Shown: piece after piece, positions 39,591 through 58,727 of the stretch | Position numbering within the stretch: position 1 is the first letter of the stretch | Layout of the letters: the number at the start of each line of letters is the position of its first letter | Assembly: GCF_004217615.1 (NCBI RefSeq) | Contig: NZ_SHLD01000001.1 | Span: forward strand, 868,001 to 932,000 | Length of the DNA: 64,000 nucleotides | Direction of reading: 5' to 3' | DNA from: Micromonospora kangleipakensis | GTDB taxonomy: Bacteria > Actinomycetota > Actinomycetes > Mycobacteriales > Micromonosporaceae | Notes under the pieces: generated by a model | Database searches by the model: none | Seen by the model: the letters and a program-made list of their open reading frames with translations, nothing else | What the model was told of the DNA's origin: nothing | Translations under genes and position numbers: made by a program

Positions 39591-39626
39591 CGGAAGGGGC
39601 TCCCGCGTGGCGGGGGCCCCCTTCCG
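39591..39626. terminator. terminator after the second NlpC gene
   Basis: CGGAAGGGGCTCCCGC (39591-39606) pairs imperfectly with GCGGGGGCCCCCTTCCG (39610-39626). It also faces the displaced dcd end, so it was probably the shared terminator of two convergent genes. Confidence 0.85.
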
Positions 39627-39637
39627 CCGTCAGCGGA

Positions 39638-39654
39638 TCGGCCAGGTGCGCCAG
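39638..39654. repeat. left attachment repeat of the dcd island
   Basis: TCGGCCAGGTGCGCCAG is an exact 17-bp match to 44236-44252 inside the 3' end of dcd. Together they bracket a 4.6-kb block that has a recombinase stub at its right end. Confidence 0.75.
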
Positions 39655-39985
39655 AGATGCCATGCGGGCTTGGCTGTCACTGGTGGCGGTGGTCATCGTG
39701 CCTCTCACCTGCGGCGGGAGTGGTGAGGCGTGGGGGACATCGGTGGCCGGTCGCGAACCTGTGACGGCCTGGAGACGGCCTGGCGGTCGCGGAAACCGAA
39801 CGCCAGGCCTGCTCCGCTGACCGGAATCGAAGCGCACTGTCAGCTTGGGCAAGATCGGCTCGAAGGGTCGCGTTCCGCCTGTTCGTCGCGCTCTCAGGTG
39901 GTGGGGTTGACTGTGGCGTGTCGACGTAGAAGCCGGCGCGCAGTCGCACGAGATAACCCCGGCGACGTCGGTGGTCATTTCCGCA

Positions 39986-40741
39986 ATGATGGCCGACATG
40001 GACGTAGACGAGGTCGAGGTTGTCGTCGCCCATAACGAGCGCGCGACCCTGCGCGTCGGCGACGTGTTCGTGAAGATCGACGCTGATCAGACCCGCACCG
40101 ACGTCGAGGTCGAGGCGATGGCGATGGCGCCGGTCCCAACCCCGGAGATCCTGTGGCGGAAGCCGCCCGTACTCGCGCTCGCCGCTCTCCCGGGGACGGC
40201 ACTCGGCCACCTCGGCGAGCCATCTACCGCTTCGTCGGCCGCGTGGGCCGCGGCGGGTGCCGCCGCCCGGATGCTGCACGACGCGCCGCTGCCGCCATGG
40301 CCCGGTCGGAGCCTCGACGAGCTCGCATCGCGCCTCGCCGATGAGTGCGAGTGGCTCGTCGCCAACGACGTCCTTCCCGCCGACGTGGTCACACGCAACC
40401 GCCGGCTCGCCGAGACTGCGCTCCGGCCGTGGACACCGGTGTTCATCCACGGCGACCTGCAGGTCGACCACGTCTTCGTCGCCGGTGACGAGGTCACCGG
40501 CGTCGTCGACTGGTCCGAGGCGTCCCAGGGCGACGCGCTCTTCGACCTCGCCGTCCTCACGCTCGGACACAAGGAGCACCTTGGCGACGTCGTCGCCGGC
40601 TACGGCACCGACGTCGACCGCGACCTCATCCGCGCATGGTGGTCGTTGCGATGCCTGACTAACGTACGCTGGCTGGCCGAGCACGGCTACGGCTCGCCGG
40701 ACGAGTTCCCCGAGGTCGCCGTGCTGCGATCCCGGCCGTAA
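39986..40741 (+). CDS. phosphotransferase (APH/choline-kinase-like)
   Basis: About 251 residues; ATG at 39986, 39989 or 39998 could be used and none has a clear ribosome-binding site. The catalytic part of the aminoglycoside phosphotransferase fold is present: FIHGDLQVDHVFVAGDEVTGVVDWSEASQGD, with the Brenner-type HGDxxxxx and DWxEA motifs. The N-terminal lobe is short (VGDVFVKIDADQ supplies the Lys) and the protein is about 40-50 residues shorter than typical APH enzymes. Substrate unknown; resistance should not be assumed. It is the first gene of the island inserted in dcd. Confidence 0.8.
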   Translation: MMADMDVDEVEVVVAHNERATLRVGDVFVKIDADQTRTDVEVEAMAMAPVPTPEILWRKPPVLALAALPGTALGHLGEPSTASSAAWAAAGAAARMLHDAPLPPWPGRSLDELASRLADECEWLVANDVLPADVVTRNRRLAETALRPWTPVFIHGDLQVDHVFVAGDEVTGVVDWSEASQGDALFDLAVLTLGHKEHLGDVVAGYGTDVDRDLIRAWWSLRCLTNVRWLAEHGYGSPDEFPEVAVLRSRP

Positions 40742-41384
40742 GGCTGCAATAGCCCGCCTGCTACGAGTGCCCGTTCTGCCGCGATCGCCGGGCCATCTCC
40801 CGAAACCCGTCGTCTTCCCGGCCGCCGAGGTCATGGTCCTGGTGAACATGAGGTGGTGGCCGAACACCCGCGGACATATCGGGTTGGGGCACCGCCCCGA
40901 TGTGCCGTTGGAGGACAGGGCGAACGTTGCCTGACGCGGCAGGAGACGCTCCAACCACGCTCGCGGTCGTTGTCATGTTCGCGTGGGTCGCCTACCGCAT
41001 GGTGCGGCCGAGAACTCGCATCAATCGAATACGCAGTCCTACCGGTCCCGTAGATGGCCCGGCCGGTCCTCTGATCCGTAGCCTCGGCGGCGTCGTGTCC
41101 GCTGTCACCTCATGGAATCGGCAGGCCCCAGCTCACCGGCCGACCCGGCCGATGCCGGCCGGAGGTCGCCAGCAGGCCGAGGCCGGACCGGTGCGGCCCG
41201 CTTGCGGGCCGCCTTGATCTGATGGAGCGGAATTCGGCAACGCGCGGACAGCGCGGCGTGTCCCGTCACGGGACATGCTTGACAGTGGCGTCCCACCAGA
41301 TGCTAGACATGATCGAGAAACTCGCTTGCAGGACCTCCGCTTGTCGGCGGCATGGTTCCAGAGCGGCCGAGGAGGTTGTCGAGC
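40742..41384. other. 643-bp stretch with gene remnants only
   Basis: No intact gene is supported. A decayed sequence on the minus strand around 41255-41300 reads WDATVKHVP and then hits a stop. It parallels WDSDLKHLPG in the HEAT-like fragment at 43701, so it may be a degraded copy. Other open frames look like background. Confidence 0.4.
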
Positions 41385-41918
41385 GTGGCAGAGCCGAATC
41401 AGCTCGATGTGGCCCGCCGTCGCTTTCCTGTGGGTGACCACGTCACGGGTCAAGTCATCCGCATACCGAGGCCTGGCGCCATCGGGCTGCTTGTGGACCT
41501 GGGCCAAGAGCCGGAGGGCTTCGTTGACGTCCTGGCCTTGCCGCACGATCCGGTCGACTGGCCTTCGCTGGGCACAGTGATGAGGTTCGAGGTTCTCCAG
41601 CACAGGCCAGGTCAGGTCGGGCTACTGCCTCTCGACGCGTCGTTCCGCTCAGGGACCTACCTGCCCACCAGCCTGAGCCACGACGAGTGGCTGTCCATCA
41701 AAATGCGCTTCCCGGTCGGCTCCGCGATCACCGGGACCGTCACTCACGTTTTCACCTCCAACAGGGAGTACGTGGTGCGGTTCGAAGACTGCTCGTCGGC
41801 CCTGGAATGGAGCCGCGGGGCCCCAACGGTTGGCGCCACCGGCAGGTACACGATTGCCCGGCATCTAGATCACACTCGACGGGTCATGCTTACGCCGGCC
41901 GACTCAACCCCCCATTGA
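41385..41918 (+). CDS. S1-domain protein (two OB-like domains)
   Basis: 177 residues from the GTG at 41385, chosen for GAGGAGG at good spacing. The first domain reads FPVGDHVTGQVIRIPRPGAIGLLVDLGQEPEGFVDVLALP, which is a classic S1 RNA-binding strand pattern. The second begins FPVGSAITGTVTHVFTSNREYVVRF. The family binds single-stranded RNA or acts as a small translation-related or immunity-type protein. It belongs to the island, with no co-transcribed partner. Exact role unknown. Confidence 0.7.
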   Translation: MAEPNQLDVARRRFPVGDHVTGQVIRIPRPGAIGLLVDLGQEPEGFVDVLALPHDPVDWPSLGTVMRFEVLQHRPGQVGLLPLDASFRSGTYLPTSLSHDEWLSIKMRFPVGSAITGTVTHVFTSNREYVVRFEDCSSALEWSRGAPTVGATGRYTIARHLDHTRRVMLTPADSTPH

Positions 41919-41931
41919 TCTAGACCGGCCG

Positions 41932-41975
41932 GTCAAATATGTGGTGGGACGGATCCGTCAAACATGTGGTGGGAC
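41932..41975. repeat. two tandem 19-bp direct repeats
   Basis: GTCAAATATGTGGTGGGAC (41932-41950) and GTCAAACATGTGGTGGGAC (41957-41975) differ at one base and start 25 bp apart. They lie just after the S1 gene and before a non-coding stretch. They could be recombinase or repressor sites or the end of a decayed insertion sequence. Confidence 0.6.
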
Positions 41976-42144
41976 CCGACAGCGGACAGCACGGCGTGTC
42001 CTCCGTCGACTGATGCGCGACATTCGTCCGCCAGCTGATCTGCGACACCTCGGCGCGCTGATCGCGGCTGAGCGGAAGCGCGGGCTGCACGTTGCGGTCG
42101 TGGCGGGGGTGCGCACCGGACGGTCACCATTCGGTTGGGTCAGC

Positions 42145-42642
42145 TCAGGCGAGCCATTCGTTGATGGTGGTGAAGTCCGTGGCGGTGAGGCCGTGGCGGG
42201 GGTCGACACGGTGCAGCAGCGCAGCTACCGGATGGTGGGCCGACACCCACGCACGGTCGGCTTCCGTGATCTCGTCATCGATCCAGACGAAGCAGCGACC
42301 GGCCGCCCGTTCGACGAGGTCACGGGTCTTCCAGTGCAGCCCGCTGTCATGCTGATCGGCCCTGTCGGACCACGTTACGAGCGGAAGCTGCGGCAGTCCG
42401 AGCAGCGGCCCGATCACCTCGTTCGCCTCGGCCATCCAACTCGTGGCCCACACCAGGTCACACCGTAGCGCCAGCAGCCGCGGTCCGTCGTCCGGGTCGA
42501 GCCGGGTGAGCAGCGGATTGGCGAACTCGATCGGACCCACCGCCATCTCTCGGTGTGGACGGCCAGCCGGGCGAGATCCGAACGGAATCAGCGGCCCATC
42601 GACATCAAGGAAGAGCAACGGACGCTCGACGGCACCCGGCAT
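42145..42642 (-). CDS. HAD-like hydrolase-fold protein
   Basis: 165 residues, ATG start. The N-terminal RPLLFLDVDGPLIPFG is HAD motif I (DxDG). LLALRCDLVWATSWMAEANEV supplies motif II (T/S), and RCFVWIDDEITEADRAW is motif IV with the paired acids. The layout fits the small cap-less HAD proteins found alone or in RNA-repair fusions, more than sugar phosphatases. No operon partner. Part of the dcd island. Confidence 0.75.
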   Translation of the reverse strand: MPGAVERPLLFLDVDGPLIPFGSRPAGRPHREMAVGPIEFANPLLTRLDPDDGPRLLALRCDLVWATSWMAEANEVIGPLLGLPQLPLVTWSDRADQHDSGLHWKTRDLVERAAGRCFVWIDDEITEADRAWVSAHHPVAALLHRVDPRHGLTATDFTTINEWLA

Positions 42643-42771
42643 GGTCGAACCCTATCGACCGGCCTCTGCTGTCGACGCGCACGTAGCGGCACGACGGTGC
42701 CCGCGCACAGCGGCAGATCAGAATGCCCGACGCACTTGATCACCCGCGCCTGCGGTCTGGCCGGCGCGCGT

Positions 42772-43554
42772 TCAGCTGCTGTTTGCTGCGGCGTAGAGCA
42801 CGTACCACAGCGCCGCACTCAGGGCACCGCTTGAGATGGCTGCGGTAAGCAGCATCGGCCATGCGCGCCAGAGGCGGTGCGCCGTGGCCAGCCAGGCCAG
42901 GACGACGATCGGAAGCACGATCTTGACGAGTTCCCCGACCACAACGCCTCGGAAGAACTCTGCTTGGTACGGGTCGGCCACGGTCAACAGCTGCCAGGGC
43001 GGTGCCTGCATCACGGCCTGCCAGCCCTCGCCGGAGAGAAGGCCGCATATCGCACCCGCGGCCAGCGTCGAGGTCGACGCTTTGCCGACTCGCACGATAT
43101 GGCCGAGCAGTCCGAGCATCGGTCCCGCGACGAGGGACCCGGTCAGCCACAGCGCCGTCATGATGGCAACCGAGCGCAGCCCCAGCAGGTCGGCCGACGT
43201 GCCGTCCTCCAGGGTGCCCCCACTCCAGCGGCGACTGACCATCAGCACAAGCAGGTAATAGAGCAGCGTGGCCAGCACCAACAGCGAGGTGGCACCGCCA
43301 ACCGCTCTTTTCGCCGTGGCAGCCGAACGGCCGGCCAGGAAGGCTGCCATGCCCCAAGCGAAGCCGCTGCTGGTCAGCGCGATCAGGACCTGCCCCACAA
43401 CGCCCGCGACGGAGTCGGCCGCGAACGCGAGCAGGCCAAGCGCAACAGCGGCAGTTGCGACCACCGCGGCATGGGTACGACGGGATCCCTCAACAGCAAC
43501 GTCGGTCACGCCCACATCCTCGGAAGGGGCGCCGAACATTCCAAGATCCAGCAT
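42772..43554 (-). CDS. multi-pass membrane protein (DUF6518-like)
   Basis: 260 residues from the ATG at 43554, preceded by GGAAGGAACC. An acidic N-terminal head of about 35 residues is followed by about seven hydrophobic segments (such as AAVVATAAVALGLLAFAADSVAG, GGATSLLVLATLLYYLLVLMV, SVAIMTALWLTGSLVAGPMLGLLG and LVKIVLPIVVLAWLATA). GAICGLLSGEGWQAVMQAPPWQLLTVADP in one loop resembles actinobacterial DUF6518 proteins. No transport or enzyme motif. Encoded in the dcd island. Confidence 0.6.
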   Translation of the reverse strand: MLDLGMFGAPSEDVGVTDVAVEGSRRTHAAVVATAAVALGLLAFAADSVAGVVGQVLIALTSSGFAWGMAAFLAGRSAATAKRAVGGATSLLVLATLLYYLLVLMVSRRWSGGTLEDGTSADLLGLRSVAIMTALWLTGSLVAGPMLGLLGHIVRVGKASTSTLAAGAICGLLSGEGWQAVMQAPPWQLLTVADPYQAEFFRGVVVGELVKIVLPIVVLAWLATAHRLWRAWPMLLTAAISSGALSAALWYVLYAAANSS

Positions 43555-43700
43555 TGCCGCGGTTCCTTCCGGCACCGAAGGGAAAGCATCCTCATCTCGG
43601 CTATGACAGGCCGTTTCGTCGGCGGCCAACCGGCCGCCCCTAGGTCGCTGGACCTGTCGCACATCTGTTGGCGGGCATGTGCCGCGGATCTCTTGTCGGA

Positions 43701-43990
43701 TCACAGCGACAGCGCGGCGGACAGCGCGACGTGCTGTCCCGGCAGATGCTTGAGATCGGAGTCCCAGTACCTGCCTGACGCGATCACGTGGTCTGTTCTC
43801 GGGCGCGTGCTTTCCGCCGGTGTTTGCGGATGTTTTCGCAGCGTCTTCAGCGCCTTCTTGGCGGTACTGACGTGCCCGCCGGTTCGCACCGTGGCGTGGT
43901 CCTCGGCGGCGAGGTGCGTCAGCAGCTTCTCGGCTCGTTCGTCGCCGGTAGCGCCGAGTGCTCGTGCTGCCCAGAAGCGCCGGAGACGGT
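43701..43990 (-). pseudogene. fragment of a HEAT-repeat-like protein
   Basis: The frame reads FWAARALGATGDERAEKLLTHLAAEDHATVRTGGHVSTAKKALKTLRKH and ends WDSDLKHLPGQHVALSAALSL. The repeated helix pattern (WAARALGATGDERAEKLLTHL) is typical of HEAT repeats. The 5' part runs into the antisense of the recombinase stub and has no start of its own. It is therefore a truncated fragment rather than a full gene. Confidence 0.4.
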
Positions 43991-44040
43991 CCGGCTTTTC
44001 ATCTCCACTTCGATGCAGACGGCGGTTAACCGCAAATGAG

Positions 44041-44193
44041 GCGGTGTCGGAGTATCTCGGCCACCACGATCCTGGATTCACGCTGCGTACGTACACGCAT
44101 CTCATGCCGGAGAGCGAGGCGCGTACGAGGCGGGCGGTGGACGCGATCCTCGGCCGTGGCCTGATCGATGCTCACGGCCTGGGGACGGCCTGA
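44041..44193 (+). pseudogene. C-terminal stub of a tyrosine recombinase
   Basis: The translation VSEYLGHHDPGFTLRTYTHLMPESEARTRRAVDAILG is the end of a phage-type tyrosine recombinase: the GHHD region and the catalytic Tyr in LRTYTHLMP. It ends at TGA (44193), 43 bp before the 17-bp repeat in dcd, the usual place for an integrase next to its attachment site. Upstream sequence is degraded, so the enzyme is inactive. Confidence 0.8.
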
Positions 44194-44221
44194 GATGCGA
44201 GTGGATCTATTGCACAGCAGG

Positions 44222-44806
44222 TCAGCGCCTACTTGTCGGCCAGGTGCGCCAGTTCTGCCACGATCGGCTCGGCGTCGGGCCGCGCTGCCCCTGGTAGCGG
44301 GAGCCGTAGACCGCCGACCCGTACGGGTGCTCGGCCGGCGAGGAGAGCCGGAAGATGCAGAGCTGCCCGATCTTCATCCCCGGCCAGAGGGTGATCGGCA
44401 GGTTCGCCACGTTGGAGAGCTCCAGCGTGACGTGACCGGAGAAGCCCGGGTCGATGAAACCGGCGGTGGAGTGGGTGAGCAGCCCGAGCCGGCCCAGTGA
44501 GCTCTTCCCTTCGAGGCGCCCCGCGAGCTGGTCGCCGAGCGAGATCACCTCGAGCGTCGAGGCGAGCACGAACTCGCCCGGGTGCAGCACGAACGGCTCG
44601 CCCTCCGGCACCTCCACCATCGAGGTCAGGTCGTCCTGCTGGACCGACGGGTCGATGTGCGTGTAGAGGTGGTTGTTGAAGACCCGGAAGAGCTTGTCCA
44701 GGCGTACGTCGATGCTGGACGGTTGCACCAGCGTGGGCTCGAACGGCTCCAGCGCGAGCGTGCCCGTCTTGATCTCGGAGACCAGGTCGCGGTCGGAGAG
44801 CAGCAT
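44222..44806 (-). CDS. dcd: dCTP deaminase with remodelled 3' end
   Basis: 194 residues, ATG at 44806. Dcd signatures: [40 protein letters not shown], the catalytic Glu region [20 protein letters not shown], and [12 protein letters not shown] with [14 protein letters not shown]. It converts dCTP to dUMP or dUTP for dTMP synthesis; actinobacterial forms can be bifunctional with dUTPase activity. The last residues are [11 protein letters not shown] displaced copy at 39630 reads WRTWPIR, so an island appears to have entered the 3' end and supplied a new last few codons. The core enzyme is intact. Confidence 0.95.
44236..44252. repeat. right attachment repeat of the dcd island, inside dcd
   Basis: TCGGCCAGGTGCGCCAG is identical to 39638-39654 and encodes the WRTWP end of Dcd. 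A recombinase using a gene 3' end as target preserves the coding sequence in this way. Confidence 0.75.
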
Positions 44807-46753: not shown

Positions 46754-46827
46754 GCGGGTGTAGTTCAATGGCAGAACATCAGCTTCCCAAGCTGACAGTG
46801 CGGGTTCGATTCCCGTCACCCGCTCCA
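46754..46827 (+). tRNA. tRNA-Gly (anticodon CCC), target of integration
   Basis: GCGGGTG pairs with CACCCGC; discriminator T and CCA are encoded. The anticodon arm TCAGC-TTCCCAA-GCTGA gives anticodon CCC. The last 44 bp (46784-46827) recur at 55986-56029 and form the left attachment site of an integrated element. The tRNA is intact because the element restores its 3' end. dcd and this tRNA are neighbours in many actinobacteria, so the locus is ancestral. Confidence 0.96.
46784..46827. mobile_element. attL of the tRNA-Gly element (44-bp direct repeat)
   Basis: The 44-bp 3' part of tRNA-Gly, starting TTCCCAAGCTGACAG and ending CCCGCTCCA, recurs exactly at 55986-56029. The integrase gene lies just inside, oriented toward the site. 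Together the repeats delimit a 9.2-kb element. Confidence 0.92.
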
Positions 46828-46832
46828 CGATC

Positions 46833-46870
46833 GAGGCCCTGGCCAGGACGACAGTCCCAGCCAGGGCCTC
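46833..46870. terminator. terminator at the left end of the element
   Basis: GAGGCCCTGGC (46833-46843) and GCCAGGGCCTC (46860-46870) form a perfect 11-bp stem, 12 bp before the integrase stop codon. It serves both the tRNA and the convergent integrase. A near-copy follows the right attachment site at 56034. Confidence 0.9.
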
Positions 46871-46881
46871 ATTCATTCAGA

Positions 46882-48024
46882 TCACTTCTTCGGCTTGCCG
46901 TGCCCGCTACGTGCCCGATCGCGGCCCTTCTTGATCTGCTCGCTGAGGCCGTCGGCGATGTGCTGGTCACGCTCCTTAGCGGTGTGCTGGTAGATCAACG
47001 CTGCCCGGGTCGAGGCGTGACCCATCCGGGCCATCAGGTCGGCGAGGCTTGCCCCGGTCCGCGAAGCGAGGGTGTTCCCGGTGTGCCGCAGGTCGTGGAA
47101 GTGGAAGCCGGGCAAGCCGACCGCCGCCACGGACACGCGCCAGTTGCAGGTGCGCTGGAAGTTGGAGCGGCGCAGGACAGCGCCGGTCGCGCCGGTAAAG
47201 ACGAGCGCGCCCTGGTCCTCATCAACGAAGTCGGCCAAGTGCGTACGCACGTCGCGGCGGATCGCCGCAGGGATGGTGACGGTCCGCACGCCGGCATCGG
47301 TCTTGGGCGGACCGAAAGTCAGGGTGCCGTCCTGGCGCTCGACCAGAGTCGCGCGGACCGTCAGGGTCCGACAGCGCGGGTCGAAGTCGCGGCGACGAAG
47401 GGCGGCCAGCTCTCCGTAGCGGAGGCTGGCGAAGGCAGCCAGCAGGATGAGGACGCGCAGACGTCGGGGCACGATGTCGGCGAGCTGGAAGACCTGGGCG
47501 ACTGTGGCAGTCGGTCGCTCCGTGGGCCGTTCGATGCCCGCACCCTGAATACGGCAGGGGTTACGCCGGATCAGCTCATCATCAACAGCGGTGTTCAGCA
47601 CGGCACGAAGAAGGCGGTACGCCTTGGCCGTCATGGTGGCGCTCACCCCGTCAGCGAGGAGATCAGCGCGCCAGGCCCGGATGGCACCGGGCGTCAGGTC
47701 AGTGAGGAAGTAGTCGTCGAGTCCAGGCGCGATGTGCTTCCGGTGCAGCCAGCGGTAGAGGTCGAGGGTCCGGGGCCGCAGGCCCGGCCGGTGATCGATC
47801 CACTCGGTGAGGTAGTCGCCGAGAGCGACACGGCCGAGATCAGGGTTACGCCAGGTTCCCCGGTTCAAATCCGTCTCGACACCAGAGAGCCACCGGTCGG
47901 CGTCGGTCTTGCTGGCGAAGGTGTGCGGTGCCGGTCGATCGACGCCGTCCGGGCCGAGATAGCGAGCTTGGAAGCGGCCCGAAGGCAGCTTTCGGACGCG
48001 GCCGAAGCGGCGCTTGCTAGCCAT
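46882..48024 (-). CDS. tyrosine integrase of the tRNA-Gly element
   Basis: 380 residues from the ATG at 48024, behind GGGAGAG. An N-terminal Arm/AP2-like DNA-binding segment (GRVRKLPSGRFQARYLGPDG), a SAM-like core-binding domain, then the catalytic domain with Arg in SLRYGELAALRRRDF, HxxR in FHDLRHTGNTLASRTG and Tyr in RAALIYQHTAKERD. It catalyses integration at the 3' end of tRNA-Gly and, with the excisionase, excision. It overlaps the xis gene by 8 bp. Two related damaged integrases occur at 56408 and 58728. Confidence 0.95.
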   Translation of the reverse strand: MASKRRFGRVRKLPSGRFQARYLGPDGVDRPAPHTFASKTDADRWLSGVETDLNRGTWRNPDLGRVALGDYLTEWIDHRPGLRPRTLDLYRWLHRKHIAPGLDDYFLTDLTPGAIRAWRADLLADGVSATMTAKAYRLLRAVLNTAVDDELIRRNPCRIQGAGIERPTERPTATVAQVFQLADIVPRRLRVLILLAAFASLRYGELAALRRRDFDPRCRTLTVRATLVERQDGTLTFGPPKTDAGVRTVTIPAAIRRDVRTHLADFVDEDQGALVFTGATGAVLRRSNFQRTCNWRVSVAAVGLPGFHFHDLRHTGNTLASRTGASLADLMARMGHASTRAALIYQHTAKERDQHIADGLSEQIKKGRDRARSGHGKPKK

Positions 48025-48226
48025 AGACGTGCTCTCCCTTCCGGTAGCGCAGGACAGGCCGGATGGCGTCAATGCGGCCTTGACGGATGTAGTCGGTGAG
48101 GTCGTCGGGGTGGAACCGGACGTACTTGCCGACCTTGTAGAAGCGGATGCGGCGCTCAGCGACAATGCGGCGCACGAAGCGGACTCCGGTGCCGAGGCGC
48201 TGTGCGGCTTGCTCGACGGTGAGCAT
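48017..48226 (-). CDS. excisionase / AlpA-type DNA-binding protein
   Basis: 69 residues, ATG start. The winged-HTH excisionase pattern is evident: MLTVEQAAQRLGTGVRFVRRIVAERRIRFYKVGKYVRFHPDDLTDYI. It overlaps the integrase gene by 8 bp, the usual Xis-Int coupling in actinomycete integrative elements. It would bind near the attachment sites to direct excision. Confidence 0.9.
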   Translation of the reverse strand: MLTVEQAAQRLGTGVRFVRRIVAERRIRFYKVGKYVRFHPDDLTDYIRQGRIDAIRPVLRYRKGEHVYG

Positions 48227-48290
48227 GTCGACGTCGCGGGGTTCGTTCAGCGCGGTACTCCTCTCGTGATGACGGGCGGGTCGTGCGGGG

Positions 48291-49853
48291 TCAGGCAGCA
48301 GCGGTCATCTCCTCTCGTGCGATCTCGTGTCGCTCCCGGGCCATGGCGGCGGCGGTGTTGGCCAGGAGGGCGTCTCCGGTGGTGCGCCAGCCGGAGCCGG
48401 CGTAGGTCAGCAGGCCGACGATGAGGGTGGTGTCGTCGCCGTCGGGTTGGTCGGCGTATTCGTGGCCGGTTTCGGTGCGTCGCCAGAGGATCCTGGCGTC
48501 GCGGAGGATGCGGAAGGTGGTGGAGTAGCGGCGGCTCTTGGTGAGGAAGTGGCCGCCGAAGCCGAGCATGTGCGCCCACCGTCGGAGCTGTTGCCAGTCG
48601 CGGTGTGCGCCGAGGGTCCAGCAGGCGTCAACAAGCCTCTCGGGGTGGGTGCCGTGCTCGTTGGCGTACAGGTCGATGACCTCGCCGTCGAGGCGGCGCG
48701 AGACGTGCCCGGTGGCTTCGGTGCTCTTGGTGGCGTACTTGGCGAGGTAGCCGGCGACCTTCCCGTCGGTGATCTCCCCGTCCGCGCTGATCGGCCGCAC
48801 GTCGACCTGTTCACCCCAGGTGATGCGCCAGCCGGCCGGGTTGGTTGGGTGGGGGCGGGTGGTGAAGGCGACGGCGGCGGCGGCGTGTTCGACGGCGGCG
48901 ACCAGGTCGTCAACGCCGATTCCGGCCGGTGGCGGCACGATGGCCTCGGGGTCGGTGGGGTGGACGCCGTCGAGGCGGATGACGGCGTGGTAGTGCACGA
49001 CGGCGCGGCGTTGCATCTCGGCGACCTTGCCGAACGACGGTTTGACCGGCGGCACCCGGCGAGTCTTCCCGCTCGCGGTGAGTTGGGCGACCCATGGCAG
49101 GCCGAGCGCGCGGGCGCGGGCGTTCAGATGGCGGGTGACGGCGATCGTGGTGCGGCGCCACAACTCAGGGGCGGAGTGGTTCCACACGACCTGTGCCTGG
49201 TAGTCGTAGCAGTCCAGGCACAGCGGCTGACCGAGCCGGGGATCGCCGTCTTCGTGGCGTGCCCAGCAGACCGACGGTTGGCCGTGCTCACACGGGGCGG
49301 CGGTGGGGTCGCTGGCGCGGCGGGGGTGGCACGGTTCGGGCCGGCAGTCGCAGCGGCGGCGGTTGCCGCAGGTGTGGCGCTTCACGACCCGGGTGTGCAC
49401 CGTGCCGAACGACGGCGCGGTGAAGGTGACGAACACGGCCGGGTGCCGGGCGACGGTGGAGGGGATGCCTTTGCCGCCGGCGAGGCCGGCGCGCAGCAGC
49501 TGGTAGGCGTCGCGTTGGTAGGTGTGGGCGCAGGAGGGGCAGACGGCGTGGCGGCGGTTGCCGCAGGGCTTGTAGATCTCTCCGTCCGGCATGTCCTCGG
49601 TCCGAGTCGCGGCCAGGAGTTGGCCGGTGCCCCGGTCGATGGTCGCGACCTCGCCCGAGAGGCGGATGGGGTGGGAGCAGCCCGCGGCTGCCTTCACGTG
49701 CTCCAGCCAGCCGAAGTAGTCCGGGGTGGTGGCCCGGGTGAAGGCGGACTCGTCACGGCCGACGAAGCCGGTCGAGGCGGCGGGGTGGGGCCGGTGCCCC
49801 GGACCAGACGGGTGAGCCTGGCCCGGGACAACGGTCGTGAGGTCAGCGGCCAC
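48291..49853 (-). CDS. RepSA-type replication initiator
   Basis: 520 residues, GTG start. Family features: a Cys-rich zinc region (CGNRRHAVCPSCAHTYQRDAYQLL), YFGWLEHVKAAAGCSHPIRLSG, VVHYHAVIRLDG (metal-binding HxH of HUH endonucleases), and VAGYLAKYATKSTEATG, which supplies a Tyr near the catalytic position. Such proteins nick a replication origin for rolling-circle replication of excised AICEs (pSAM2 type). The start overlaps the upstream 97-residue gene by 11 bp. Confidence 0.92.
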   Translation of the reverse strand: MAADLTTVVPGQAHPSGPGHRPHPAASTGFVGRDESAFTRATTPDYFGWLEHVKAAAGCSHPIRLSGEVATIDRGTGQLLAATRTEDMPDGEIYKPCGNRRHAVCPSCAHTYQRDAYQLLRAGLAGGKGIPSTVARHPAVFVTFTAPSFGTVHTRVVKRHTCGNRRRCDCRPEPCHPRRASDPTAAPCEHGQPSVCWARHEDGDPRLGQPLCLDCYDYQAQVVWNHSAPELWRRTTIAVTRHLNARARALGLPWVAQLTASGKTRRVPPVKPSFGKVAEMQRRAVVHYHAVIRLDGVHPTDPEAIVPPPAGIGVDDLVAAVEHAAAAVAFTTRPHPTNPAGWRITWGEQVDVRPISADGEITDGKVAGYLAKYATKSTEATGHVSRRLDGEVIDLYANEHGTHPERLVDACWTLGAHRDWQQLRRWAHMLGFGGHFLTKSRRYSTTFRILRDARILWRRTETGHEYADQPDGDDTTLIVGLLTYAGSGWRTTGDALLANTAAAMARERHEIAREEMTAAA

Positions 49854-50136
49854 GGGTGCGGACCGCCTTGGTGGGTAGGTGGGTGATGGGGCCAGTGCCG
49901 AACGGGTTCGGGTGTTCGAAGATCCGGCCGAGCAAGGACGCCACGTGCGCGGGCAGGTCGGCCCGGTGGTGTTCCCACAGGTAGATGTCGCGGATGAGCT
50001 GGTAGGTCTTCGGCAGCTCGATCCCGTCCCGTTGGGCGAGGATCTTCATGCGGCCGATGAGCTGGACGGGTTCCCAGCCTCGGGCCAGCCGGGGTTGACG
50101 CCAGCGGTAGACGGTGGGTGCGGGGGTGGTGGTCAT
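49843..50136 (-). CDS. conserved AICE small protein
   Basis: 97 residues from the ATG at 50136. It reads TVYRWRQPRLARGWEPVQLIGRMKILAQRDGIELPKTYQLIRDIYLWEHHRADLPAHVASLLGRIF. The sequence is soluble, basic and helix-forming, and looks like a small nucleic-acid-binding or partner protein. Similar small genes sit before RepSA in actinomycete elements. The start overlaps the stop of the XRE gene by 1 bp (TGATG). No catalytic motif is seen. Confidence 0.75.
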   Translation of the reverse strand: MTTTPAPTVYRWRQPRLARGWEPVQLIGRMKILAQRDGIELPKTYQLIRDIYLWEHHRADLPAHVASLLGRIFEHPNPFGTGPITHLPTKAVRTRGR

Positions 50137-50996
50137 CAGGCCACCGCCCGCAAGGTCGTGGAGGCCGCCGGGATGGCGGTTTCGGTGATGGTGTCGAGGC
50201 TGGTCAGGTAGAGCCGGGACAGCGGCCCGTTGGGCAGGGCGCGTAGGTGGATGATCGGGGCGAAGGCGGCGGGGCAGCCGTCGATGCCGGTGCGCACGAT
50301 CAGGTCGTCGTCGACCCACAGGATCGTGGTGGCCAGATTGCCCGGGTAGCGGGCGACGTTGACGCCGTGGTCGGTCAGGGGCAGGTAGGTGGCCTCGGCC
50401 GCGAGGGCGCGGGCCGTGTCGATGGGGTTGGTGGCCGTGTGCGGGTCCGTGATGATGATCCGGACTTGGATGCGTCGGGCGGTTTTGTCGGCCAGGAGGC
50501 GTGGCAGGTTGGGGATGAGGTCGGGCAGACCGAAGTCGCCCATGATGGTGATTCGCCGTTGCGCTTCGGTGAGCAGGCGGGGCCACAGGTCGTGGGGGAC
50601 GGCGGCGCGGCCGGGCCAGCAGGCGGTCAGCTCATCGCTGCCGGAGATCTTGCTGGTGCGGTTGCCGTGGATGGATGGCCACAGGTAGGTGACGTCGACG
50701 TCGAGCAGCCGCGCGGCCAGGTAGGCGGTACGCGGGTGCGGGTGGCGGTTGGCGTTGCCGATCCACCGTTCCACGGTCTTCGGATCGACGCCGAGCTTGC
50801 CGGCGAAGTCAGCCGGTGACTCGTTGAGCGAGAGCAGAGTCTCGCGGAGCCGTTCGTTGCAGGGACTGGTGACGGTGCGGATGGTGGTGGGCCGAAGGTC
50901 AGCGGGAGACAGGTGCGAGCAAGCACCAGCAGGCGCGTCGACAGACGCCCTCACAGGGGTCGACGCCACCGGCCGACGGATCGAGGTGGCCGTCAT
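50136..50996 (-). CDS. XRE-type HTH regulator with a C-terminal ligand- or phosphodiesterase-like domain
   Basis: 286 residues, ATG start. A 45-residue low-complexity head is followed by an HTH (RLRETLLSLNESPADFAGKLGVDPKTVERWIGNANRHP, about 48-85). The C-terminal 170 residues contain ITIMGDFGLPDLIPNLPRLLADK, VRIIITDP and TTILWVDDDLIVRTGIDG, a layout seen in DUF5919-type regulators of actinomycete elements. It overlaps the Cys-rich gene (ATGA, 4 bp) and the 97-residue gene, so the three plus RepSA are one operon. Probably the element regulator. Confidence 0.75.
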   Translation of the reverse strand: MTATSIRRPVASTPVRASVDAPAGACSHLSPADLRPTTIRTVTSPCNERLRETLLSLNESPADFAGKLGVDPKTVERWIGNANRHPHPRTAYLAARLLDVDVTYLWPSIHGNRTSKISGSDELTACWPGRAAVPHDLWPRLLTEAQRRITIMGDFGLPDLIPNLPRLLADKTARRIQVRIIITDPHTATNPIDTARALAAEATYLPLTDHGVNVARYPGNLATTILWVDDDLIVRTGIDGCPAAFAPIIHLRALPNGPLSRLYLTSLDTITETAIPAASTTLRAVA

Positions 50997-51436
50997 CGGG
51001 CCACCGCCACGGGCAACTCAGTGTCGACCTGGGTGAGGCCGCCCCAGCAGGAGCAGGGGAGCGAGGAGGCCGGGTCGGCTCCGGCTCCGTGGCACTGGTT
51101 GCAGACCGCCCATGCGGTCTGCGCGAACTCGGCGATACATGCCGGGGACTGGCAGGCCTGGTGGCCGCACATGACGCAGTAACCGGCGAAGTTGCAACGT
51201 GGCGGCAGGTAGGAGCCGCGCGGTGCGCGCACGGTGGTGGGGGTGGAGTTCGTGCCGAGCACGGACAGGCAGGCCAGCAGAGCGGTGTGATCGAGCACCG
51301 CAGGCAGGTTCAGCGCCTCACCCGGGGCCAGCGCGTCCCGAAGCGTCGCCAGAGCAGACAGCAGGCGAGCATCGGACAGCGCCGAGGAGTGGCCCGAGGC
51401 GCAGTGAGCAGGGTGAACGGTACGCTGGACAGGCAT
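50993..51436 (-). CDS. Cys-rich protein with paired zinc knuckles
   Basis: 147 residues from the ATG at 51436 (AAAGGA upstream). The first 75 residues are Ala/Leu-rich and helical. The C-terminal half has CVMCGHQACQSPACI, CNQCHGAG and CSCWGG, arranged like a DnaJ-type or rubredoxin-type zinc ribbon. It leads the minus-strand operon that ends with xis-int. Divergent from the HTH-PP2C cassette at 51650. Role unknown; a small zinc regulator is plausible. Confidence 0.7.
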   Translation of the reverse strand: MPVQRTVHPAHCASGHSSALSDARLLSALATLRDALAPGEALNLPAVLDHTALLACLSVLGTNSTPTTVRAPRGSYLPPRCNFAGYCVMCGHQACQSPACIAEFAQTAWAVCNQCHGAGADPASSLPCSCWGGLTQVDTELPVAVAR

Positions 51437-51535
51437 CGTCGTTCCTTTCGCAGAGGGCCGATGCACTGGGCCTCGACGGGCCGCAATCCCGTCGGGGCCT
51501 CCTCTTTGCGCTCCCCATATCCCTTGTAAAGGGGG

Positions 51536-51592
51536 ATTGCGCATCGATGTATGACCGAGGGTAGGCAAGGGCTATTGCGCGGGTCAAGCCCT
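51536..51592. promoter_or_regulatory. control region between divergent operons of the element
   Basis: ATTGCGC occurs at 51536-51542 and again at 51574-51580. The second copy sits inside the inverted repeat AGGGCT (51568-51573) / AGCCCT (51587-51592). The spacer between the Cys-rich gene (51436) and the HTH gene (51650) is AT-richer than its flanks. The element's regulators probably act here. Confidence 0.4.
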
Positions 51593-51649
51593 GTAGTGCG
51601 ATAAGCTTCCATGTGTCGCTTGAGCGAGGCGGCAAGCAGGAGGAGACCC

Positions 51650-52492
51650 GTGGAAATCAGCCCGCACGGCCTGGCCGACATCCAGGACCCAGGCGAGAGA
51701 GCGCGCAAGGCTAGCGACCTGATCGATGAGCATCAGGCGGCCGTCAACGAGCTGTCGCGGCTGCGCCGCGAAGCGCTGGACGAGATGGTGTCGCAGGGCA
51801 TGACGCACGCGCAGATTGCCCAGGTCGTCGGCATGACCCGCGCGCGGGTGGGCCAGCTCCTGTCATCCGGACCCCGCCCCGAGCGTGCGATGCTCGGCAC
51901 CGGGCCGCTGACCGTTGCCGTAGGTGGGAAGTTCGAGGCGGGCAAGAAGGACCCGTACGCGGTCGTCTCGGCCGAGATGCTGGCCGCGTACGAGAAGCTT
52001 TCCAACCTCGCACGTGGGCTTGGTTTGAAGACGGAGTACGAGGTGGTGCCCCCGCCGGGCATGGTCGACCTGAACCGCACCAATCTGGTTGTGGTCGGCA
52101 GCCCTCGGATCCTGCCCTTCGTCGGGCAGGTGCTCGCCTCTGACCCGAAGCTCGGTTTCGGCAAGGACGACGGCGGCCTGTATCTGGTTAACCACCAGAC
52201 CGGCGAGGAGTTCCACTCTCCGTCGGACAGCGGCGAGCCGGTCGACTACGGGTACATCGGCCGGCTACCCCGGCCCGACGGGCGTGGCACCTTCCTGTAC
52301 CTGGCGGGCATCCACGCCATGGGCACTCTCGGCGTCACGCAGTACCTGGAAGACCACCTAGACGAGCTGTACCGCGAGGTGAAGAACCGCCGGTTCTCGC
52401 TGCTGGTGAGGTGCACGTACGACCCGGCGAAGCGGGCCGTGACGAAGGTCGACGCGTTGACGCCGATCTACCGCAGCGAGGGTGTGGCCTGA
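51650..52492 (+). CDS. HTH protein with unrecognised C-terminal domain, partner of a PP2C phosphatase
   Basis: 280 residues from the GTG at 51650, behind GGAGGAG. An N-terminal amphipathic helix (ARKASDLIDEHQAAVNELSRLRREALDEMV) is followed by a sigma-region-4-like HTH (MTHAQIAQVVGMTRARVGQLLSSG, about 60-83). The C-terminal 190 residues are alpha/beta: PLTVAVGGKFEAG, NLVVVGSPRILPFVGQVL, FGKDDGGLYLVNHQTGEEF, DYGYIGRLPRP, FLYLAGIHAMGTLGVTQYLEDHLDELY and FSLLVRCTYDP. I do not recognise this domain; the Rossmann-like strands and the GIHAMG turn suggest ligand binding. The stop overlaps the PP2C start by 1 bp (TGATG). Confidence 0.8.
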   Translation: MEISPHGLADIQDPGERARKASDLIDEHQAAVNELSRLRREALDEMVSQGMTHAQIAQVVGMTRARVGQLLSSGPRPERAMLGTGPLTVAVGGKFEAGKKDPYAVVSAEMLAAYEKLSNLARGLGLKTEYEVVPPPGMVDLNRTNLVVVGSPRILPFVGQVLASDPKLGFGKDDGGLYLVNHQTGEEFHSPSDSGEPVDYGYIGRLPRPDGRGTFLYLAGIHAMGTLGVTQYLEDHLDELYREVKNRRFSLLVRCTYDPAKRAVTKVDALTPIYRSEGVA

Positions 52493-53298
52493 TGCGCGTC
52501 GCCACCGCGTCGGAGGCCGGCAACCCGAAGTCGCCCAACGAGGACTGGGCAATGGCTAGCGAGAACCTGATCGTGGTTCTCGACGGTGCCACCGCCCGCA
52601 CCGGCACCGGCTGTGTCCATGGCATCGCCTGGTACGCCGCCAAGCTCGGCTCGGCCCTCGCCGGCCTGGCCGCCGACCGCGACTCCGCGCTGTCCAACGC
52701 GCTGATGTACGCCATCCGGTTCACCGCCGATCAGCATCGAGACACCTGCGACCTCAGCCACCCCGGCACTCCCTCGGCGGCGACGGCGATCCTGCGGCTC
52801 AAGGACACCGCTTTGGAGTACCTGGTGCTCGGTGATGTCACGGTGCTCATCGACACCGTCGATGGCATCCAGGTCATCACCGACGACCGGGTGGACAAGA
52901 CCGCCCGCGCGGAACGCGAGGAAGCCGACCGGTACCCGTTCGGGTCGGCCGAGAAGCAGGCCGCGTTGCTGCGGATGAAGCACGCCGAGCTTGCTGCCCG
53001 CAACCAGCCCGGCGGGTACTGGGTGGCAGCCGCGGACCCGTTCGCCGCACAGCACGCCATCACCGGGGAGGTGCCGCTCGACAGCGTCCGGCGAGTCGCC
53101 GTGCTGACCGACGGAGCCGCGCGACTCGTGGCCCTGTTCGGTCTGCTCGACTGGCCCGACGTGCTCGACGTCCTGGAGCAGAACGGCCCGACCGAGCTGA
53201 TCAGCCGGGTGCGCGCCATTGAGGCCGCCGACCCGTCCTGCATGAAGTGGGCACGCAACAAACGCAGCGACGACGCCACCGCCGTCTACGCAGCCTGA
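52492..53298 (+). CDS. PP2C-family protein phosphatase
   Basis: 268 residues, ATG start coupled to the HTH gene. Diverged PP2C motifs are in order and complete: SEAGNPKSPNEDWA (N/E-D), NLIVVLDGAT (DG), GTPSAATAILRL, YLVLGDVTVLI (GD), AVLTDGAARLV (DG) and KRSDDATAVYA (D-D instead of D-N). The active-site acids look intact, so catalysis is likely. It is cytoplasmic, with no membrane helix. The nearest kinase genes (PknA/PknB) are in the host backbone, so its phosphoprotein substrate could be the HTH partner or a host protein. Cargo of the element. Confidence 0.85.
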   Translation: MRVATASEAGNPKSPNEDWAMASENLIVVLDGATARTGTGCVHGIAWYAAKLGSALAGLAADRDSALSNALMYAIRFTADQHRDTCDLSHPGTPSAATAILRLKDTALEYLVLGDVTVLIDTVDGIQVITDDRVDKTARAEREEADRYPFGSAEKQAALLRMKHAELAARNQPGGYWVAAADPFAAQHAITGEVPLDSVRRVAVLTDGAARLVALFGLLDWPDVLDVLEQNGPTELISRVRAIEAADPSCMKWARNKRSDDATAVYAA

Positions 53299-53999
53299 GC
53301 AGCCAATACGCGAGCAGAGCCGCCGGCTGCCGGCCGAGGTGGTGAGAACTTTCTGTACGTCTTCAAGGCGGCCCTGAACGGGCCGCGCGCGCCGCCGCCA
53401 GGGCGCGCGTCCGTCGCTCCGCTGGCGCTCCGACTCCGGCCACGCAACACGCCCGGCGGCTGGCGCGGACAGCGGGAAGCCCACGGGGCCGCCGAAGAAC
53501 GACAGCAGCCTTGACCGGCGATGTGGTGGGCCGGCAGCCGGCCGGGCCGCGCGGCCGGGACCCACGCGGGGTAGCGGATCGCACGCCGGCCACGTCGGCG
53601 AGCTGACACCGCGCGGGGTTGCGGCTACTGCGCCTCCGGCGGGGGCGCTCCGGCTCCGGGATGGCGAAGATCGTCGGCAGCCGCCGGGTCCGTGGGTGGT
53701 TGCGGTAGGCCATCCCGCCTGCCATCGACCCGGGCGAGCCGAGCAGACCACCGCCCGACCCGCCAGCGCCCGTTCGAGCCGTCAAGGTCCGCTTGACGGT
53801 GGCGGGCCGGGCGGTGGCCCGCTCCCCAGGAGGGCGGGTCGACGGCAGCCGGGATGGCGGACAGTCGGGTGGCGTATCTCAGGGACCTGCCGATGAAAGT
53901 GCGTACATGTGTGCCACCAGGTGGTGGTGCTTTCGTGCGTTACGAGCCGTAATACGGGTAGGTAGTGGCGCGGTCGATGAGGTGAGATGGGAGGGCTGG
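53299..53999. other. 701-bp non-coding stretch between the PP2C gene and the GH15 gene
   Basis: No gene can be supported. The stretch is very GC-rich with related short motifs, such as GCTGGCGCTCCGACTCCGG near 53421 and GGGCGCTCCGGCTCCGG near 53644. A spacer of this size next to an element's right end is where a transfer or replication origin would lie, but no single oriT-like hairpin stands out. Confidence 0.4.
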
Positions 54000-55832
54000 G
54001 TGGACTCGTACCCTGCGGTGGAGGCCCACGGCTTGATCGGTGATCTGCAGACCGCGGCGCTGGTGGCGATGGACGGGACGCTGGACTGGTTCTGCGCCCC
54101 ACGCTTCGATTCGCCGAGCGTGTTCGGTGGGCTGCTCGATCGACACAGCGGCGGCTACTTCAAGGTCTCGCCCGATGGCGTCGACTACACGAGTAAGCAG
54201 TTGTACCTGCCCGGCACGCCGATCCTGATCACCCGCTTCCTCAGCGCGGACGGCGTAGGTGAGCTGGTGGATTTCATGCCCGTCGCGGGGGATCAGCCTA
54301 CCGACCGCCACCGCCTGGTGCGGATGCTGCGGATGGTCCGAGGCACGATGCGGTTCCGGATCGACTGCCAACCCCGCTTCAACTACGGGCGGGATCCGCA
54401 CGAGATCGAGACCTACCCCGAGGGGCACGTTTTCCGCAGCCCTGCGCTCTCCCTTGCCGCGAGCCTCGTTCAATACCCCGAAACCCGGCCGCTCGAGCAC
54501 GGAGTCCTGAGTAAGGAGGGCGGCATGTGGACCATCACCACGCTGCGCGAGGGCGAGGCCGGGGCTGTGGTCCTGGAAACAGGAGTGTCGCCTGACCGGC
54601 CACGCACTTACACCCCCTGCGCGGTGCAGGAGCTGCTGGAGCAGACCCGTGACTTCTGGCGGCGTTGGCTGGCCCGCTCCCGCTACACCGGCCGGTGGCG
54701 GGAAATGGTCCATCGGTCCGCGATCACGCTCAAACTCATGACGTACGCGCCGACCGGCGCGCTGGTCGCCGCCCCCACCGCCGGGCTGCCGGAGCAGATC
54801 GGCGGGGAACGCAACTGGGACTACCGCTACACCTGGATCCGCGACTCGTCAATCTCCATACACGCCCTGCTCGCCCTGGGCTTCACCGACGAAGCGCGGC
54901 AGTACATGCACTGGCTGGACGACCGGGTCCGGGAGGCCAGGGAACGGGCGGTGCCGCTCCAGATCATGTACCGCGTCGACGGCTCACCCGATCTCAGCGA
55001 GGAGGTGCTCGACCACTTCGAGGGGTACCGCGGATCAGCACCCGTGCGCATTGGCAACGGCGCCGCGAACCAGCTGCAACTCGACATCTACGGCGAGGTA
55101 CTCAACTCCCTCCACGTCGCCGACTGTCACGGTCTGCAGGTCCCTCACGAGGGGTGGGTGAACACGGTAGGGCAGATGGACTGGCTGTGCGACAACTGGG
55201 ACCAGCCCGAGGACGGGATCTGGGAAACGCGCGGTGGCCGGCAGGACTTCACCTACGGGCGCCTGATGTCCTGGGCAGCCCTGGACCGCGCGGTCCGCCT
55301 CGCTGATCGACGCGGACGACCAGCCGACACGAGCCGGTGGGTGGGTACCCGGAACCAGATCTACGACCAGATCATGTCGCGTGGCTTCCACCCCGGACGC
55401 CGTGCCTTCGTGCAGCACTACGCGACCGACGTCCTGGACGCGTCGCTGCTTGTGATGCCCTGGCTCGGATTCGTGTCGCCCGACGACCCGATGTGGCAGT
55501 CGACGCTGCGGGCCATGGACACAGAACTGGTCGCCGACAGCCTGGTCTACCGGTACGACCCGGCCGCGTCACCTGACGGCCTGCCCGGCCAGGAGAGCAC
55601 CTTCACCATGTGCAGCTTCTGGTACGTCCGGGCCCTCGCGCAGTCCGGACGGCTCGAAGACGCCAGGCTGACCTTCGAGAAGATGCTCACCTACAGCAGC
55701 CCCCTCGGCCTCTACTCAGAGGAAATCGCCCCCACCGGCGAGCAGACCGGCAACTTCCCGCAGGCGTTCAGCCACCTCTCCCTGATTGGCGCGGCCGTGG
55801 AACTCGACCGCCTACTCGACGCCCGCCCCTGA
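54000..55832 (+). CDS. glycoside hydrolase family 15 protein (glucoamylase/trehalase-like)
   Basis: 610 residues if the GTG at 54000 is used (MDSYPAVEAHGLIGDLQTAALVAMDGTLDWFC matches the family start); GTG at 53982 is the alternative. A beta-rich N-terminal domain (RFDSPSVFGGLLD, DFMPVAG) precedes the (alpha/alpha)6 catalytic domain from about 260: RNWDYRYTWIRDSS, catalytic-type Glu in DGIWETRGGRQDFTYGRLMSWAALDRA, and the second acid region GLYSEEIAPTGEQTGNFPQAFSHLSLIGAA. Actinobacterial members include trehalases. Cytoplasmic, no signal peptide. It ends 153 bp before the right attachment site, so it is element cargo, an unusual metabolic passenger. Confidence 0.9.
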   Translation: MDSYPAVEAHGLIGDLQTAALVAMDGTLDWFCAPRFDSPSVFGGLLDRHSGGYFKVSPDGVDYTSKQLYLPGTPILITRFLSADGVGELVDFMPVAGDQPTDRHRLVRMLRMVRGTMRFRIDCQPRFNYGRDPHEIETYPEGHVFRSPALSLAASLVQYPETRPLEHGVLSKEGGMWTITTLREGEAGAVVLETGVSPDRPRTYTPCAVQELLEQTRDFWRRWLARSRYTGRWREMVHRSAITLKLMTYAPTGALVAAPTAGLPEQIGGERNWDYRYTWIRDSSISIHALLALGFTDEARQYMHWLDDRVREARERAVPLQIMYRVDGSPDLSEEVLDHFEGYRGSAPVRIGNGAANQLQLDIYGEVLNSLHVADCHGLQVPHEGWVNTVGQMDWLCDNWDQPEDGIWETRGGRQDFTYGRLMSWAALDRAVRLADRRGRPADTSRWVGTRNQIYDQIMSRGFHPGRRAFVQHYATDVLDASLLVMPWLGFVSPDDPMWQSTLRAMDTELVADSLVYRYDPAASPDGLPGQESTFTMCSFWYVRALAQSGRLEDARLTFEKMLTYSSPLGLYSEEIAPTGEQTGNFPQAFSHLSLIGAAVELDRLLDARP

Positions 55833-55985
55833 GCCCGACTCTAGGCTTGCTGACAAGCTCGTGCCCGACCCGTGCCCGATGCAGGGGTCAACAGGGGTAC
55901 GACTCGACACGGCACAGGGCCGTCAATTGACGGTGCGTAGCCGCTGGCCGGGTCAGGTAGTCACCGGGGGTGTAGATCAACCCGA

Positions 55986-56029
55986 TTCCCAAGCTGACAG
56001 TGCGGGTTCGATTCCCGTCACCCGCTCCA
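55986..56029. mobile_element. attR of the tRNA-Gly element (44-bp repeat)
   Basis: An exact copy of 46784-46827, the tRNA-Gly 3' end from TTCCC to CCA. The 5' half of the tRNA is absent, so no functional tRNA is made here. It also serves as the left end of the next, remnant element, because it is followed by a second terminator and integrase in the same order as at the left end. Confidence 0.92.
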
Positions 56030-56033
56030 TCGA

Positions 56034-56073
56034 GAAGGCCCTGGCCAGGACGCAAGTCCCAGCCAGGGCCTTC
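56034..56073. terminator. terminator following attR, near-copy of the left-end terminator
   Basis: GAAGGCCCTGGC (56034-56045) and GCCAGGGCCTTC (56062-56073) form a perfect 12-bp stem. It differs from the 46833-46870 hairpin by a few bases only, and both are preceded by the att core. Confidence 0.88.
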
Positions 56074-56123
56074 GACGTTTCCCAGGCTGCGGCTGTTGCC
56101 CGTGCCATTGGCGTGCCATTAGC

Positions 56124-56405
56124 GTGCGGTCGGAGGTGAGCGACCTGGCAGCGAAACTGACCCGAGACGAGGCGATTGCCCTCGTGGAGCGGATCATGAG
56201 CGGCGACTACGCGGACGACGCTGAGGCGGACGGGTGGCTGGACCAACTTGAGCGAGACCTCGTCTGCCCGGACGGCAGTGTCTCCGGCCTGATCTTCTGG
56301 ACTGACCCCGAGTTGACGGCTGCTGAGGTGGTTGACCGAGCCTTGGCCTATCAGCCGATCCAGATGCGGTCCACGCCATGGACGCAGCCGCCGCCGAGCA
56401 CATAG
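56124..56405 (+). CDS. colicin/pyocin immunity-like protein (orphan)
   Basis: 93 residues, GTG at 56124 (GTG at 56136 also possible). LTRDEAIALVERIMSGDYADDAEADGWLDQLERDLVCPDGSVSGLIFWTDPELTAAEVVDRALAYQPIQ fits the small acidic four-helix fold of E-type colicin/pyocin immunity proteins, with the conserved D-x-IFW-type strand/turn and the trailing AxEVV-helix. Such proteins bind and block a cognate nuclease bacteriocin. No toxin gene is adjacent, and the gene lies between an att site and the integrase remnant. It could be a solitary immunity gene picked up by the element. Confidence 0.65.
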   Translation: MRSEVSDLAAKLTRDEAIALVERIMSGDYADDAEADGWLDQLERDLVCPDGSVSGLIFWTDPELTAAEVVDRALAYQPIQMRSTPWTQPPPST

Positions 56406-56407
56406 CC

Positions 56408-57602: not shown

Positions 57603-57932
57603 TACGCCACCTGCCGCAGCTCGCGCCACACACCCGACCTCCGGCCGGCATCGGCCGGGCCGGCCGGCCACGCTTGGGACGACTAAAGCCCTTGAAGACC
57701 TCGGGGCTCTGCCCCGGACCCCGGCCCTCCTCAGAGATCGGCCGGGGCGGTCACCTCATCGGGCACCACGAGGGCTACCAGCCTCCCCGGACGGGGCCAA
57801 GGTCGTACGTCCGGTGGGGCGCTCCACCTTGTCCCCGTCCGGGGAGGCTGGACGGTCTACGACTGCCCGATGAGGAGATCCGCTAAGCGGCGGACAACGC
57901 TGGACGACTGTCTGCGCACCATGATGGTTCGC
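57603..57932. other. 330-bp non-coding stretch dominated by a nested palindrome
   Basis: The region between the integrase remnant and the P-loop gene has no supported gene. Its right half is the 122-nt nested palindrome at 57754-57875, listed separately. Confidence 0.6.
57754..57875. repeat. 122-nt nested imperfect palindrome
   Basis: Outer arms: CCTCATCGGGCA (57754-57765) and TGCCCGATGAGG (57864-57875), a perfect 12-bp match. Inner arms: 57778-57800 (starting CCAGCCTCCCCGG) and 57829-57851, 23 bp with one mismatch. The central loop (57801-57828) has a further GGTGG/CCACC hairpin. The structure could be a replication or transfer origin (rolling-circle dso, oriT or sso), a large RNA hairpin, or a regulatory palindrome. 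Its element context favours an origin, but no initiator gene is adjacent. Confidence 0.75.
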
Positions 57933-58625: not shown

Positions 58626-58727
58626 CCGCCGATCCTGGCAGACCCGCAGACGCGCTGTCGACGTGCCGAGCGTGAGCACCAGGGCGTGACGGGCCATCCA
58701 TGGGCCAGTAGCGGCGGCCGGCAGCGG

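Follow-up and report, generated by a model that had tools for sequence, protein, structure and literature searches.

The gene for dCTP deaminase (dcd) in Micromonospora kangleipakensis (194 aa; 44222..44806, minus strand; TIGR02274 2.4e-62 and the tails of its relatives) raises the question of how 4.6 kb of other sequence came to lie directly behind its stop codon, and whether its last residues are still its own. This study addressed the question in a window of 64,000 nucleotides (contig NZ_SHLD01000001.1, positions 868,001 to 932,000), to which the coordinates below refer. Our answer, to which we give a probability of roughly 90%, is that the inserted stretch, hereafter the island, is the relic of a tyrosine-recombinase element resembling an actinomycete integrative and conjugative element (AICE), and that this element used dcd as its chromosomal attachment site (attB).

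The island is bounded by a 17-bp core word, TCGGCCAGGTGCGCCAG, present in two exact copies on the plus strand at 39638..39654 (attL side) and 44236..44252 (attR side), the core starts being 4598 bp apart. At two or fewer mismatches the window contained three matches, against 0.04 expected in shuffled sequences; the third lies at 42855 with two mismatches. Beyond the core, past three mismatches, five more bases (TGCCA) agree between both copies. The right copy lies in frame within the 3' end of dcd, whose final residues SRR and stop codon are on the core's island side. On the minus strand, the left copy reads WRTWPIR-stop (39630..39653) and adjoins a hairpin (approximately 39591..39626) located 3' of the NlpC/P60 gene (38551..39585, plus strand; PF00877 1.1e-23), which by synteny is the convergent chromosomal neighbour of dcd. 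Both copies and both readings agree with the earlier note on this DNA, which had been made from the sequence alone and took them to mark an element in a protein gene with element-derived final residues. The base composition did not set the island apart from its surroundings.

This interpretation was supported by empty sites and native tails in the relatives. Each of 151 sampled Micromonospora genomes had a dcd match, and these genomes were also searched for NlpC. The dcd–NlpC gap was measurable in 135 genomes, in which the listed matches of both genes lay on one contig, and did not exceed 207 bp in 132 of them, the others measuring 380 bp (G115), 1795 bp (G131) and 4642 bp (M. kangleipakensis, G000). 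Among the remaining 16 genomes, 13 had no syntenic NlpC among the matches listed, G097 had no full dcd match listed, and G135 and G147 had the two genes on different contigs; their dcd tails were read directly, and 15 were native while one, that of Micromonospora sicca 4G51 (G147), was occupied. Judged by gap or tail, the island is present in 2 of the 151 genomes, and each of 16 loci (L044–L059) contained only one core. Apart from the two occupied genomes, 47 tails were read, and all except that of G131 (WPTGRR) ended in WPTR or WPIR; the endings TSRR and TSRH were found, among the tails read, only in the two island-bearing genomes. Since 46 of 47 tails and the short gaps agree in this way, TSRR is not native, and the left copy is consistent with being the original tail left behind. 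The earlier note had proposed a comparison with relatives for empty sites, which were found, and had named TSRR endings in island-free relatives as the contrary case, of which the 47 tails offered none. That TSRR is native to the lineage, with the left copy a chance or duplicated sequence, could appeal to the WPTGRR tail of the island-free G131, but is hardly credible against the 46 WPTR or WPIR tails. Neither of the two other long gaps was accepted as an island: at G131 (L044), the stretch read had no second core and the 1.8 kb between dcd and NlpC holds other genes that look host-like by eye, and at G115 tandem repeats were recognized by eye.

Next to the right core lies what resembles the C-terminal stub of a tyrosine recombinase (44020..44193, plus strand), convergent with dcd. 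The stub, about 58 aa long, retains LGH and the TYTH tyrosine, and it ends at 44193, 42 bp from the core, so that the stub described in the earlier note was recovered with its distance corrected from 43 bp. The assignment draws on similarity to the C-termini of other integrases, to which the stub is roughly 53–81% identical (tblastn and family search), and the six full-length relatives scanned were all Phage_integrase proteins in Pfam (PF00589), L065 and L290 being the same gene by position.

The relatives of the stub's integrase group sit at other gene 3' ends. A search for the stub in 354 genomes of the family gave matches of 1e-9 or better in 126, and 30 loci were fetched. In six of them (L253, L257, L262, L272, L275 and L278) the junction was the metH 3' end, in two (L276 and L279) a gene for an Smr-domain protein, in one (G000) dcd and in about eleven a recurrent site, here called site X, the remainder being different; the domain, Met_synt_B12 or Smr, was confirmed at one locus of each kind. 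In eight 20-kb regions fetched around related integrases (L285–L292), the junction sequence was repeated upstream in seven, over 13–21 bp. The core repeats spanned 13.2 kb in L286, 12.2 in L287, 13.9 in L288, 13.7 in L289, 11.8 in L290 and 14.2 in L291, and 3.2 kb in L292, where the integrase is truncated. The six spans of 11.8–14.2 kb lie at metH or at site X (L290 and L291 at the latter). Both elements scanned for genes (L286 and L290) carry a pSAM2-type RepSA gene beside the integrase, and L290 also carries FtsK/SpoIIIE; these gene sets are AICE-type. In the relatives the integrase runs toward the junction and ends about 40–60 bp from the core, as in the dcd island. As an observation apart, the metH-located L286 encodes an AbiTii-domain protein (12263–13054 of that region; 1.6e-23), a possible defence cargo, and L267, from another genus (G164:C1, around 3.90–3.96 Mb), has five matches to integrases of the same family at about 16-kb spacing, suggesting a tandem array.

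The Micromonospora elements at metH and at the Smr-domain gene thus share with the dcd island a homologous integrase C-terminus that is convergent with the target gene and a similar distance from the integrase stop to the core, and part of the metH group also shares the GCAGGTCAG word before the core. They differ in their target gene, and several look near intact, at 11.8–14.2 kb. These likenesses bear on the explanation that cargo was gathered between dcd and NlpC by illegitimate recombination, the 17-bp repeat being a leftover duplication of the dcd end. Homologues of the cargo scattered in relatives, the scraps of other elements in the island, and the G131 gap with its genes and no core repeat are all compatible with that explanation; it is nevertheless very improbable, as the stub lies 42 bp from the core in the orientation and at the distance seen in the metH elements, the core is exact at both ends, and the in-frame stop lies on the element side. 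We also suggest, tentatively and at somewhat less than even odds, that one Micromonosporaceae AICE integrase group has repeatedly moved its target among the 3' ends of unrelated housekeeping genes (metH, the Smr-domain gene and dcd) and at least one further site, its att site each time bringing a gene tail similar to that of the target, by which the frame is restored. If true, the group would form a natural series in which the retargeting of a tyrosine integrase can be followed. An integrase group with several gene-end targets could be used in retargeting studies or for Micromonospora integration vectors.

The second occupied genome, M. sicca 4G51 (NZ_QGKS01000172.1), has an island at the same site, and its dcd ends in TSRH. 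Each side of the site is at the end of a separate contig (L043 and L032), so the island is not closed there. Its left arm (39655..39901, plus strand, in M. kangleipakensis) is common to both genomes at 92.5–95.5% identity and its right arm (44083..44235, plus strand) at about 93%, the alignments giving 95.5% over 223 aligned bases and 92.7% over 150. The flanking genes are 96.4% (dcd) and 95.4% (nlpC) identical, and the closeness of these values to those of the arms fits a resident about as old as the flanks. Besides the arms, a 35-bp stretch and a multi-copy repeat of about 106 bp match the M. kangleipakensis island, and most of the M. sicca interior read does not match it. The site-specific entry into dcd proposed at the outset is supported, and M. 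kangleipakensis is not its only bearer, since M. sicca holds the same site with largely different cargo.

Several findings weigh against a relic of an AICE-like element at dcd. The stub alone gave no integrase match in Pfam, and a full-length integrase targeting dcd was not found in our searches, so its specificity for dcd is deduced from its position. Neither Pfam nor NCBIfam matched a replication or transfer gene (RepSA, RepAM, Prim-Pol or FtsK/SpoIIIE) among the six open reading frames of the island and the stub. Among the related elements, L285 has no second core within its 20-kb stretch, the 13-bp core copy of L289 is shorter than another, unrelated-looking repeat of 14 bp, and FtsK/SpoIIIE was not found among the nine open reading frames of L286. 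In M. sicca the left core has one mismatch, and in local trees of seven genomes M. sicca joins the empty genome G032 with M. kangleipakensis outside, at ultrafast bootstrap values of 87 (left), 77 (right) and 97 (joined). The dcd island has what is expected of an AICE remnant, an integrase remnant homologous to AICE-type integrases and placed at a core repeat, and lacks what would make it a full AICE, having a stub in place of a complete integrase, no replication initiator and no FtsK/SpoIIIE. Its AICE ancestry is placed through the stub and is best regarded as probable.

The trees also bear on the number of insertions. Owing to the grouping of M. sicca with G032, a single gain needs loss or recombination in G032, and two independent insertions of the same specificity at dcd would agree with both this grouping and the mostly unmatched interiors. 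On the other side, the two genomes have a composite left arm in common, down to its fragment of a tRNA-Gly gene, and the arms are about as diverged as the flanks, which leaves two gains unlikely, at perhaps one chance in four. Because the composite left arm is common to both genomes, we prefer a single old insertion shared by M. kangleipakensis and M. sicca, which would have been followed by loss or replacement in G032.

Taking these data together, an AICE-type element would have integrated by site-specific recombination at the 17-bp core that covers the final dcd codons (CTGGCGCACCTGGCCGA when read in the dcd orientation), the crossover being the presumed step. In the att site of the element, its own copy of the dcd end would have preceded the codons from which TSRR-stop is now read. 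In this way dcd would have stayed open with its final IR replaced by TSRR, and the original tail, the stop codon and the terminator region would have been moved to the far side of the island. The element would then have decayed, its integrase to the C-terminal stub, with no recognized replication or transfer gene left and the interior becoming a patchwork of cargo and repeats.

The hairpin found behind dcd in the relatives is now about 4.6 kb away from the dcd stop, and a simple consensus scan found no terminator-like minus-strand site between dcd and 42638, the first downstream of dcd. The solved Dcd closest in sequence (2qxx) aligns to residues 1–186 of the query; as the changed residues lie outside the aligned part, Dcd with the TSRR tail would be expected still to work. 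The case suggests that an enzyme of core metabolism can end in residues supplied by a mobile element and be separated from its terminator region.

The search for other elements with a recombinase next to dcd, which the earlier note had advised, led to M. sicca and to no intact element. Among the 30 loci fetched, the only stub match at dcd was that of M. kangleipakensis itself, and the M. sicca match was listed also at dcd. A pattern of the attR arm gave three matches in GTDB genome contigs, namely M. sicca and two contigs of metagenome-assembled genomes named Acidobacteria and Gemmatimonadetes; in these two contigs tblastn detected no dcd and none of the integrases tried. The arm one base longer gave no match in IMG/VR. 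The dcd core occurred in 19 stretches of IMG/VR, and dcd itself matched in none of them. Two of these viral contigs agree exactly over 2020 bp and contain an 18-bp dcd end (L234, 1658–1675; L238, 7504–7521), and an integrase frame of another type ends about 350 bp from the core; since the core there falls within another open frame, the match is read as probably chance. The right junction had no match in phage records and three short partial matches in plasmids, and the whole island matched 31 plasmid records, none covering 80% of it.

The interior of the island holds an APH-family phosphotransferase with an open frame (256 aa; 39971..40741, plus strand; PF01636 9.5e-18), for which no specific resistance family was found, all NCBIfam matches being far below their cut-offs. 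The other cargo consists of a weakly S1-like protein (188 aa; 41352..41918, plus strand; rpsA 4.2e-4, below the cut-off), a HAD-domain protein (HAD_SAK_2; 42145..42642, minus strand; PF18143 1.5e-7) and a protein of 310 aa (42772..43704, minus strand) that matched no Pfam or NCBIfam family and appears by eye to be a membrane protein. The stretch 42708–43601 matches G032 elsewhere at 97% DNA identity, and individual cargo genes are found again in relatives at scattered positions. The left arm contains a degraded relic of the 3' half of a tRNA-Gly(CCC) gene (39818..39849, minus strand), which together with about 50 bp adjoining it (39850–39901) resembles sequence next to the 3' halves of tRNA-Gly genes in five further Micromonospora genomes; Rfam does not score the relic, and only the intact tRNA scored above chance. 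Therefore, the scattered cargo homologues and the tRNA-Gly scrap indicate that the island is composite. The insertion of a 4.6-kb element, as first described, holds as an insertion, and the 4.6 kb are a decayed and partly refilled remnant that includes a scrap of a tRNA-Gly-type element. A multi-copy repeat was also observed at 41136–41314, 41992–42071 and 57635–57886 of the window; near 821.6–821.8 kb of the same genome two of its pieces adjoin each other, whereas the island has them separated by a segment that contains the S1-like gene.

About 2 kb upstream of dcd is the start of the genomic tRNA-Gly gene, and this tRNA-Gly(CCC) is a second integration spot (46754–61170), with an integrase at 46882–48165 (minus strand) and a second copy of the tRNA-Gly 3' half at about 55986–56029. 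A large open reading frame (56408–57511, minus strand) partly matches sequence beside tRNA-Gly in G084, and similarity to M. sicca resumes at about 61173. The region perhaps contains two tandem elements.

Compared with known systems, the decay of AICEs to a partial integrase and their insertion in protein genes are already described. In a Streptomyces population, decayed AICEs with a partial integrase and repeats were reported, and 14 of 51 AICE insertion sites were in protein genes (PMC9513070); those elements are from another genus, and dcd does not occur in the main text of that report, whose site table is supplementary. In the part of the literature on PAISt and related islands considered here, a tyrosine recombinase lies beside the bacA 3' end in Streptomyces, and in sedentary relatives a remnant of the integrase persists together with a degenerate core (PMC4057263). 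The dcd island is similar in its tyrosine recombinase at a protein-gene 3' end and its integrase remnant, whereas PAISt has an 8-bp palindromic core in islands of 105–674 kb, compared with a 17-bp core and 4.6 kb here. According to the portion of an AICE survey used here, the vast majority of described actinobacterial AICEs sit in tRNA genes, except for the pSLS subfamily (PMC3218068). AICEs with tyrosine integrases agree with the present elements in having the integrase beside att and, in the relatives of the dcd island, RepSA and FtsK-type genes; unlike them, the dcd island has no recognized Rep or Tra. Our literature search, which covered titles and the starts of abstracts, retrieved no report of dcd as an integration site, so that the kind of element is known and dcd, as far as searched, is new as its target. 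Actinobacterial elements land at the 3' ends of certain protein genes, and dcd adds to their number, here with a genus-wide comparison of the site before and after insertion and a second occupied genome.

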